Position numbers and translations under genes: made by a program. Source: Maritimibacter alkaliphilus (lineage in GTDB: Bacteria; Pseudomonadota; Alphaproteobacteria; Rhodobacterales; Rhodobacteraceae). Taken from it: 64,000 nucleotides of DNA. Below the pieces are notes generated by a model that saw nothing but the letters and a program-made list of their open reading frames with translations, was not told the origin of the DNA and made no database searches. Positions 21,528 through 24,910 of this stretch are shown here, piece by piece; the stretch's first letter is position 1; the number at the start of each line of letters is the position of its first letter. Location of the stretch: contig NZ_JAHVIT010000002.1 of the NCBI RefSeq assembly GCF_019801605.1, positions 1,240,001-1,304,000 of the forward strand. Reading direction: 5' to 3'.

Positions 21528-23651
21528 ATGGCACGCGAATATCCGCTGACCCGGTATCGTAACTTCGGCATCATGGCCCACATCGATGCCGGCAAGACCA
21601 CGACGACCGAGCGTATCCTCTACTACACCGGCAAGTCCCACAAGATCGGCGAAGTCCACGACGGCGCCGCGACCATGGACTGGATGGAGCAGGAGCAGGA
21701 GCGGGGGATCACGATCACTTCCGCTGCGACCACGACCTTCTGGCAGTGGCAGGAAGATCCGACCGCCGAAGGCACGTCGGACACGAAGTTCCGCTTCAAC
21801 ATCATCGACACCCCCGGCCACGTCGACTTCACCATCGAAGTCGAACGTTCGCTCGCGGTTCTCGACGGTGCGGTCTGCCTTCTTGACGGTAACGCCGGTG
21901 TTGAACCCCAGACCGAAACCGTGTGGCGTCAGGCTGACCGCTACAAGGTTCCGCGTATCGTCTTCGTCAACAAGATGGACAAGATCGGTGCTGACTTCTT
22001 CAACTGCGTGAAGATGATCAAGGACCGTACCGGTGCGACCCCCGTTCCCGTCGGCATGCCGATCGGTGCAGAGGACCAGCTGGAAGGCACCATCGACCTG
22101 ATCACCATGGAAGAGTGGGTCTGGAAGGGTGACGACCTCGGCGCAGGCTGGGTCCGTCAACCGATCCGCGACGAGCTGAAAGATCTGGCCGACGAATGGC
22201 GCGCCCACATGATCGAAGCAGCCGTCGAGATGGACGACGACGCCATGGAAGCCTACCTGGAAGGCGAAGAGCCCGACGTGGCCACCCTGCGGAAACTGAT
22301 CCGCAAGGGCACGCTGTCGCTCTCCTTCGTTCCGGTTCTGGGCGGTTCCGCGTTCAAGAACAAAGGTGTCCAGCCGCTGCTGAACGCCGTCATCGACTTC
22401 CTGCCGGGTCCGCTCGACGTTCCGCCGTACATGGGCTTCAGCCCGGACGACGAGACGGAAGAGCGTAACATCGCCCGTCACGCCAACGACGAAGAGCCTC
22501 TCTCGGGCCTCGCGTTCAAGATCATGAACGACCCCTTCGTGGGCTCGCTCACCTTCACCCGCATCTACTCCGGTGTGATGAAGAAGGGTGACTCGATCCT
22601 GAACTCGACCAAGGGCAAGAAAGAGCGCATCGGTCGTATGATGATGATGCACGCGATCAACCGCGAGGAGATCGAAGAGGCATTCGCAGGCGACATTATC
22701 GCGCTGGCCGGTCTGAAAGAGACCACCACCGGTGACACGCTCTGCGCTCAGAGCGCGCCCGTCGTGCTCGAAACGATGACCTTCCCCGATCCCGTGATCG
22801 AGATCGCCATCGAACCGAAGACCAAGAACGACCAGGAGAAGATGTCTCAGGGTCTGCAGCGTCTGGCGGCCGAAGACCCCTCCTTCCGCGTGGAGACCGA
22901 CCTCGAGTCCGGTCAGACCATCATGAAGGGCATGGGCGAACTTCACCTCGACATTCTCGTCGACCGTCTGAAGCGCGAGTTCAAGGTCGAGGCGAACATC
23001 GGTGCGCCGCAGGTGGCCTACCGCGAGACCATCTCGAAAGAGGTCGAGCACACCTACACCCACAAGAAACAGTCGGGTGGTTCGGGTCAGTTCGGCGAGG
23101 TCAAGCTGGTCATCACTCCGACCGAGCCCGGCGAAGGCTACTCGTTCGAGTCGAAGATCGTTGGTGGTGCGGTTCCGAAGGAATACATCCCCGGCGTCGA
23201 AAAAGGGATCAAGTCGGTCATGGACTCCGGTCCGCTGGCAGGCTTCCCGGTCATCGACTTCAAGGTCGCGCTGCTGGACGGTAAGTTCCACGACGTCGAC
23301 TCGTCGGTCCTCGCGTTCGAGATCGCAGCCCGTATGTGCATGCGTGAAGGCATGCGCAAAGCTGGCGCGAAACTGCTCGAGCCGATGATGAAGGTCGAAG
23401 TGATCACCCCGGAAGAATACACCGGTTCGATCATCGGCGACCTGACCTCCCGTCGTGGCCAGGTCTCGGGCCAGGAGAACCGCGGCAACGCCGTGGCGGT
23501 CAACGCCTTCGTGCCGCTGGCCAACATGTTCGGCTACATCAACAACCTGCGCTCCATGTCCTCGGGCCGCGCGCAGTTCACGATGCAGTTCGACCACTAC
23601 GACCCGGTTCCGCAGAACATCTCGGAAGAGATCCAGTCGAAGTACGCATAA
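21528..23651 (+). CDS. fusA: elongation factor G
   Basis: 707 residues, five-domain translocase GTPase. G1 AHIDAGKT at 17-24, DTPGHVDF near 93 and NKMD near 147 are intact. The domain IV tip region is present. AGGAAGG lies upstream of the ATG. The 83-nt spacer to tuf is filled with alternative hairpins (see 23657). Confidence 0.98.
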
Positions 23652-23656
23652 GCAGC

Positions 23657-23712
23657 GGTGCGGGGACAGCCCCGCACCCTACTACCCCGTAGGGTGCGTC
23701 AACGGACGCACC
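23657..23712 (+). promoter_or_regulatory. three overlapping alternative hairpins in the fusA-tuf spacer
   Basis: Stem A: GGTGCGGGG 23657-23665 with CCCCGCACC 23670-23678. Stem B: GCACCCTAC 23674-23682 with GTAGGGTGC 23689-23697. Stem C: GGTGCGTC 23693-23700 with GACGCACC 23705-23712. All are perfect. B shares bases with both A and C, so B excludes A plus C. No T-run follows. The function is not known. Confidence 0.75.
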
Positions 23713-23734
23713 GCCAGACAGATAGGAGGCCCCA

Positions 23735-24910
<1,176 letters not shown>

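Follow-up and report, generated by a model that had tools for sequence, protein, structure and literature searches.

A conserved, probably REP-derived palindrome doublet between fusA and tuf in Rhodobacteraceae

The gap between fusA (EF-G) and tuf (EF-Tu) in Maritimibacter alkaliphilus contains two GTAG-tagged REP-like palindromes whose GTAG ends face each other, and a doublet of the same layout lies at this locus in roughly two in five of the Rhodobacteraceae genera sampled. The element is conserved, intercistronic, single-copy in this genome, and probably REP-derived, and it is placed where fusA versus tuf output could be affected. Our preferred reading, which draws on sequence comparison, is that of a retained REP-like doublet that would serve, as a stem-loop between two cistrons, in the decay or processing of mRNA; we put its chance at about one in two (roughly 0.5).

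Anatomy of the fusA-tuf gap

We analyzed a 64,000-nt stretch of the M. alkaliphilus genome (hereafter, the window). Here, the genes for EF-G and EF-Tu lie downstream of those for S12 and S7, and the fusA-tuf gap spans positions 23652-23734. Its features and the flanking genes are as follows:

21528-23651, + strand: fusA (EF-G), the upstream gene (NCBIfam TIGR00484 and open reading frame; stop codon TAA at 23649-23651)
23655-23656, + strand: 5' strand of P1, a short outer helix, pairing with 23713-23714 (inverted-repeat search)
23657-23678, + strand: hairpin A (P2), a REP-like palindrome in inverted orientation (arms 23657-23665 and 23670-23678, loop 23666-23669)
23673-23698, + strand: alternative hairpin B, which excludes A and C and is conserved only in some members of the family (arms 23673-23682 and 23689-23698)
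23679-23692, + strand: facing tags CTAC (23679-23682) and GTAG (23689-23692), with a C-rich, G-free spacer (23683-23688)
23693-23712, + strand: hairpin C (P4), the second REP-like palindrome (arms 23693-23700 and 23705-23712, loop 23701-23704)
23713-23714, + strand: 3' strand of P1 (inverted-repeat search)
23723-23729, + strand: tuf ribosome-binding site TAGGAGG, outside the hairpins (sequence)
23735-24910, + strand: tuf (EF-Tu), the downstream gene (NCBIfam TIGR00485 and open reading frame; ATG at 23735)

Read from fusA to tuf, the element consists of hairpin A, CTAC, the C-rich spacer, GTAG, and hairpin C. Hairpin C amounts to a GTAG with an 8 bp stem behind it, and hairpin A repeats this unit in inverted form; the facing CTAC and GTAG tags are able to pair with each other (P3). 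Hairpin A starts 5 nt past the fusA stop codon. Hairpin C stops 22 nt short of tuf, and the ribosome-binding site, which begins 11 nt past C, stays free. An earlier sequence-only reading had placed this TAGGAGG correctly, a little 3' of C, and had described three perfect hairpins of 9, 9, and 8 bp. All three are 100% complementary, and A and C have the lengths given (9 and 8 bp), but B is 10 bp long. The same reading held that A, B, and C share arms, such that B is mutually exclusive with A and C, and we find this overlap as described. It missed a fourth pairing, of 8 bp, between the outer arms (23655-23662 with 23707-23714); P1 lengthens to these 8 bp (from 23655 to 23662) only when A and C are opened.

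Both halves have the form of a GTAG REP, i.e., a palindrome of 20-40 bp with GTAG at one end, and the doublet sits as such REPs do, outside genes and downstream of a coding region. The sequence GTAGGGTGCG occurs twice in the window, both times in this element, and none of 100 shuffles contained it twice. Since two palindromes of one type have four arms that overlap in sequence, this could by itself yield the 1-2-3-4 pattern of arms from which a switch had been proposed.

Folding, a check suggested along with the hairpins, bears out a strong structure: RNA of 23630-23740 folds to -47.5 kcal/mol versus a shuffled mean of -34.7 (z -3.90), and 0 of 200 shuffles fold as low. For the gap itself, the A+C state (-39.9 kcal/mol) and the B state (-38.4 kcal/mol) lie 1.5 kcal/mol apart. 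The element is thus predicted to be a stable stem-loop between genes of one message, as intercistronic stability hairpins are, with co-transcription read from gene order. Consensus scans of 23300-23800 returned no terminator-like or sigma-70-like site, and no Rfam 15 covariance model matched 23500-23900 at E up to 1, so that no known Rfam family accounts for the element at this threshold.

Distribution and maintenance of the pairing

To place the element among relatives, we collected fusA-tuf gaps from three sources: 80 FusA-anchored loci from named genomes, a genus set in which 21 of 22 genomes matched, and a family sample of 149 genomes, one per genus. FusA was found in 130 of the 149, and 120 of these 130 gaps were fetched (our own genome, one gap at a contig end, and the eight lowest-scoring were left out). 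The two-hairpin element is present in 51 of the 120 fetched genera; another 58 have a short gap of a different kind, and in 11 no tuf start was found in the stretch. All sources together gave 197 gap records, 189 of them distinct, of which 172 are short with tuf found. A layout parser passed 87 of these 172. The parser demands hairpins A and C, whose presence in all 87 is therefore by construction, so we repeated the test on gaps selected by tags alone (CTAC and GTAG 2-14 nt apart). This selection yielded 82 of the 172 gaps; hairpin A (at least 5 bp) is found in 82 and hairpin C in 81. Within the genus, 17 of 19 readable gaps carry the element, and the other two have two hairpins without the tags. 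The layout is regular: hairpin A starts 3-8 nt past the stop codon in 85 of the 87 parsed elements, an exact CTAC is found in 81, and an exact GTAG in 84.

Other sequences are seen past fusA in some relatives. In six loci (L036, L042, L071, L076, L087, and L156), the gap is longer (536-581 nt in the first five) and, by eye, a small lipoprotein-like open frame replaces the hairpins. In three others (L072, L077, and L209), the sequence past fusA resembles, by eye, the start of a sulfotransferase-type protein.

On a FusA tree of 77 rows, the state of the element changes 17 times, at least 7 of them on well-supported branches. The state is clustered on this poorly resolved tree (17 changes versus a shuffled mean of 25.7; 0 of 500 shuffles as low), and the patchy distribution fits loss, replacement, or repeated arrival. 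In two sister species of Lutimaribacter, the arms of both hairpins are of different types, a pattern that resembles replacement more than gradual change. Beyond the family, we scanned 289 genomes of the class, at least four of which belong to the same family, with a model built from fusA-tuf elements (R1). Under strict filters it matched 1 of the 289 at E 1e-5, a member of the same family (G076); as R1 misses the arm type of the window (our own genome, G000, has no match), absence elsewhere holds only for R1-like arms.

Hairpins A and C pass the covariation check across Rhodobacteraceae that had been proposed for them. Arm sequences vary among the 87 elements and the pairing is maintained, with 664 of 671 pairs in hairpin A being Watson-Crick (plus 5 G-U, 1 A-C, and 1 other) and 620 of 628 in hairpin C (plus 7 G-U and 1 A-C). 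MAFFT alignments of all arm types together (A1 and A2) were out of register and were excluded from counts, and the two arm classes were aligned apart as A3 (25 of 28 sequences of one arm class; L096, L179, and L210 left out) and A4 (15 of 23 GTGCG-type rows). A3 and A4 were chosen for even arm lengths and their pair counts lean to regular elements; the count over the 87 elements is that of the whole set. In A3, 99.4% of cells are paired under the A+C structure, with 30 two-sided changes versus a shuffled mean of 6.9 and a covariation score (0.211 versus 0.063 in shuffles) above all 500 shuffles. In A4, 100% of cells are paired, with 16 two-sided cells versus 6.0, and the score (0.178 versus 0.088) is again above all 500 shuffles. 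Two other A4 measures are not above shuffles, namely the number of pairs with a two-sided change (3, reached by 261 of 500) and of further pair types (11, reached by 89 of 500).

The P1 flanks of the 87 elements pair with their own partners better than in all 1,000 shuffles. Across seven close relatives, differences affect 22 of 786 compared positions in stems versus 84 of 147 in loops and spacer, and all three differences between this element and that of the nearest relative (L105) fall in loops. Gaps with the element are structured (z below -2) in 83 of 87 cases versus 41 of 85 gaps without it; hence strong structure at this place is common, not universal.

REP kinship and strand-specific marks

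GTAG REP dimers have been described as short palindromes in opposite orientation that fold separately or as one large stem-loop; they lie mostly downstream of coding regions and occur as homodimers and heterodimers (Di Nocera et al. 2013, PMC3733652, available sections). The fusA-tuf doublet shares with these dimers (of BIME/REPIN type) the tag, the facing palindromes, the ability of the partners to fold apart or as one large stem-loop, the downstream siting, and the occurrence of homo- and heterodimers (PMC3733652, same sections). It differs in being single copy in a genome (that of M. alkaliphilus) that has no RAYT, in its recurrence at the same locus in many genera, and in its strand-specific spacer and loop marks. 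The main text of PMC3733652 contains no word beginning Rhodobacter, Roseo, Ruegeria, Paracoccus, or Dinoroseobacter, and we found no mention of the fusA-tuf doublet in the available parts of the literature searched, PMC3733652, PMC12306157, PMC2864571, PMC8632094, and PMC6238624 included.

High copy number, typical of GTAG REPs, is not seen in M. alkaliphilus. Its genome has seven sites with GTAGGGTGCG, two of them in this element (9 matches for the reversed control), and the five others show by eye no following inverted arm. A DNA search of this genome gave the fusA-tuf place as the only one with E below 0.5. A further model, R2, finds the fusA-tuf place at E 6.9e-14 and the next at 0.61; the window's own sequence is among those that built R2, so only the distance to the next match is informative. 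With DNA, pattern, and model searches all giving one place, we rejected an ordinary multi-copy REP of this genome. Neither is there a cognate Y1 transposase, as a RAYT-mobilised REPIN or BIME would have: PF01797 has no match in the M. alkaliphilus genome and is found in 15 of the 149 family genomes.

Similar palindromes are dispersed in other genera. A loose GTAG-palindrome pattern, which does not enforce pairing, matches G039 112 and 120 times on the two strands (reversed control, 14 and 20), with G041, G086, and G158 likewise rich in it; the M. alkaliphilus genome has 7 and 16 matches versus 27 and 25 for the reversed control. Two of these palindrome-rich genomes, G039 and G041, have no Y1 transposase match. 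R1 matches at least 61 of the 149 genomes, 30 of them with one or two matches and 31 with three or more; these hand-made counts are lower bounds, as 35 candidates were scored per genome under strict filters. We fetched 20 other doublets among the matches listed, one of them a tuf leader; a stop codon lies a few nucleotides ahead of at least 12. Ten genes upstream of doublets were scanned, of which nine match a family and one none; the nine are serC twice, rplR, rpoA, sucD, atpD, rpoB, an ABC ATPase, and a thiolase. In eight loci (L321, L323, L324, L325, L335, L336, L337, and L340), doublets lie directly past the stops of serC, rplR, rpoA, sucD, atpD, and rpoB, as named by NCBIfam (rplR in L336 by eye).

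Among the matches listed for the 22 genomes of the genus, CCTAC-spacer-GTAGG occurs at 0 to 9 places each, fusA-tuf included. Two loci of the genus carry REP-like pairs elsewhere, mid-locus: the pair in L125 (G016) has its GTAG ends outward, and the doublet in L127 (G005) has the layout of the fusA-tuf element. G086 has a second tuf gene whose leader contains a diverged doublet copy (L327 versus L246). This leader carries TGACGGGTGG, the sequence at the junction of fusA and gap in that genome, and the copy was likely brought by tuf gene conversion; its stems still pair by eye, and it matches R1. The second tuf of the window (start 1969) has no doublet in its leader, where a promoter-like stretch, CTTGAT ... 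AATAAAT, can be seen by eye (1880-1970).

The fusA-tuf elements are marked on the sense strand. Their spacers contain 5 G in 654 nt (87 elements) versus 51 in 245 nt for 18 dispersed doublets, whose spacers were read in the direction of the best model match. GNRA loops cap 20 of 87 A hairpins and 1 of 87 C hairpins, with 0 on the antisense reading. Stem mismatches on the sense strand are G-U rather than A-C by 11:1 (p 0.006, too small a value as the rows are related), or by 12:2 with the misparsed row L123 (p 0.013, too small for the same reason). Strand-neutral upkeep predicts equal numbers of the two, against which the 11:1 speaks; transcription-linked C-to-T mutation might also produce a G-U excess. 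R1 scores fusA-tuf sites far better on the sense strand (e.g., 84.7 versus 62.4 bits in G120), whereas for some dispersed doublets the two strands give similar scores (71.0 and 70.7 in G129) and for others they differ (three in G140, one each in G103 and G160), a comparison limited by the training of R1 on fusA-tuf sites. The G-poor spacer, the GNRA loops in A, and the G-U bias suggest selection on RNA.

Possible roles and alternative explanations

EF-G and EF-Tu are needed in unequal amounts. We suggest that the element is transcribed within an rpsL-rpsG-fusA-tuf message, as gene order implies. There, hairpin A would fold a few bases past the stop codon of fusA, with C ending ahead of the tuf start and the ribosome-binding site free. 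The stem-loop might then block 3'-to-5' decay of the upstream message, form a structure that protects the 5' end of a processed tuf message, or both, and fusA and tuf RNA would come to have different lifetimes. The A+C fold would be the working form, and B a by-product of two related adjacent palindromes. We infer a decay barrier or processing boundary from the proximity of the stop codon, the free ribosome-binding site, the lack of a terminator, and the strong double stem. Against this reading we count the 58 of 120 fetched genera with another short gap, the many changes of state on the FusA tree, the differing arm types of the two Lutimaribacter species, the mutational alternative for the G-U excess, the REP-like pairs elsewhere in L125 and L127, the A4 measures that did not exceed shuffles, and the elements in which B is energetically favored (52 of 77; see below).

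Comparable arrangements are known. The E. coli malE-malF REP (BIME) consists of palindromes between operon genes that stabilise the upstream mRNA, and it is one of many REPs in that genome. Here, too, REP-like palindromes lie between operon genes, but as a lone copy. Closer by, we take the puf operon to be the known precedent in Rhodobacteraceae for intercistronic hairpins. In Rhodobacter, the protein stoichiometry of the puf operon (pufBA-pufLMX) is set by structural RNA elements of a single message (PMC11354728, in part). The two cases share the bacterial family and structural RNA within one message (PMC11354728, same part); they differ in their genes, and the function is experimental for puf and proposed for fusA-tuf. 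The attenuators of the rpsL (str) operon belong to the same operon, but their place is 5' of rpsL (in streptococci, 5' of fusA), and they have terminator T-stretches (PMC2965389, in part), whereas the doublet lies between fusA and tuf and has no T-stretch. The HRC-8-4 motif of Rhodobacterales, with its run of U and other gene context, was set aside.

The sequence-only reading had seen in the shared arms a 1-2-3-4 switch such as an attenuator. We took this up as a two-state RNA that would alternate between A+C and B in response to a protein, translation, or temperature. That proposal fared poorly, and we now consider it quite improbable. In the gaps selected by tags, without regard to hairpins, B extends at least 5 bp beyond the tags in 66 of 82, versus 82 for A and 81 for C; it has at most 4 bp in 16 and fewer than 3 bp in 8 (18 and 10, respectively, among the 87 parsed elements). 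On A3, the B structure has 93.8% of cells paired and a covariation score of 0.114, weaker than A+C, yet above all 500 shuffles. No TTTT occurs within 14 nt 3' of C in any of the 87 elements, which extends to the family the earlier remark that no T-run is obvious, and as that remark also had it, no leader peptide is obvious by eye; a terminator or attenuator is not supported, given the absent T-run, the absent terminator-like site, and the lesser conservation of B. In favor of a switch, apart from the frequency of B and its covariation on A3, are the energies. Beside the narrow difference between the two states in the window, 77 of the 87 elements are able to form B with at least 3 extra pairs, and in these B is lower by more than 1 kcal/mol in 52, A+C in 16, and the two are within 1 kcal/mol in 9. 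Within a species, the arms of A and C are also better matched than randomly paired ones (5.74 versus 3.94 bp; maximum of 1,000 shuffles 4.48). Several species combine two REP types, e.g., a CGGGG-type A and a GTGCG- or CCGGG-type C. We read the match of the arms as a sign of a shared REP type, which in our reading also lowers the energy of B; the element may be two-state in part of the family. Ribosome stalling, in which a hairpin a few nucleotides past the fusA stop hinders termination and lowers EF-G relative to EF-Tu, is unlikely. It would suit the constant position of hairpin A and the other doublets found directly behind stop codons, and Liang, Rudd and Deutscher reportedly found in 2015 that E. 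coli REPs near stop codons stall ribosomes. It does not account for hairpin C, the tags, or the near absence of G from the spacer, however, and many genera do without such an element. Least probable of all, we think, is a site bound by a protein that regulates its own operon (S7 or EF-Tu) or by another RNA-binding protein: an unpaired C-rich spacer beside an often GNRA-capped sense-strand hairpin would make a plausible target, and S7 controls rpsL and rpsG translation in E. coli (PMC2965389, in part), but arm sequences vary freely and Rfam gave no match at E up to 1.

The main rival is relic or selfish DNA: a REP-type doublet that ended up in this gap and is maintained as a palindrome at the DNA level, by template switching between arms and by replacement with other REP types, with no role in the expression of fusA and tuf. 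We hold it to be possible, if rather doubtful. Similar GTAG palindromes are dispersed in other genera and REP-like pairs occur elsewhere in two genomes of the genus, the arms of A and C are alike within species, pairing is nearly perfect, and the sister Lutimaribacter species differ in the type of both hairpins. Template switching can create and maintain perfect stems with multi-base compensatory changes (PMC8794818, in part). Yet searches of the M. alkaliphilus genome found neither another copy to replace from nor a RAYT, and the copy in the tuf leader of G086 has diverged with its pairing kept by eye. Nor would a strand-neutral process be expected to leave a strand-specific spacer, strand-specific A loops, and biased mismatches, or sense-strand scores at fusA-tuf sites that some dispersed doublets lack.

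Beyond the decay or processing role that we favor, we tentatively entertain a more specific history. A mobile REP pair may have given rise to a family-specific cis-acting RNA, which selection on RNA kept after its REP kin and transposase were lost; its often GNRA-capped first hairpin and nearly G-free loop might be recognized by a protein or nuclease, and in this way it might set the EF-G:EF-Tu ratio.

Studies of REPs usually deal with a multitude of copies and of weak effects. In this case, a single doublet is met again and again at the same essential locus in a bacterial family, with changing arms, and in M. alkaliphilus it stands alone, with neither other copies nor the transposase. It would offer a clean natural case in which to ask at what point a mobile palindrome turns into a functional component of an operon. 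Its sense-strand marks, being readable directly, could help to separate RNA selection from template switching in the conservation of hairpins. It also bears on how the adjacent genes for EF-G and EF-Tu may yield different levels.
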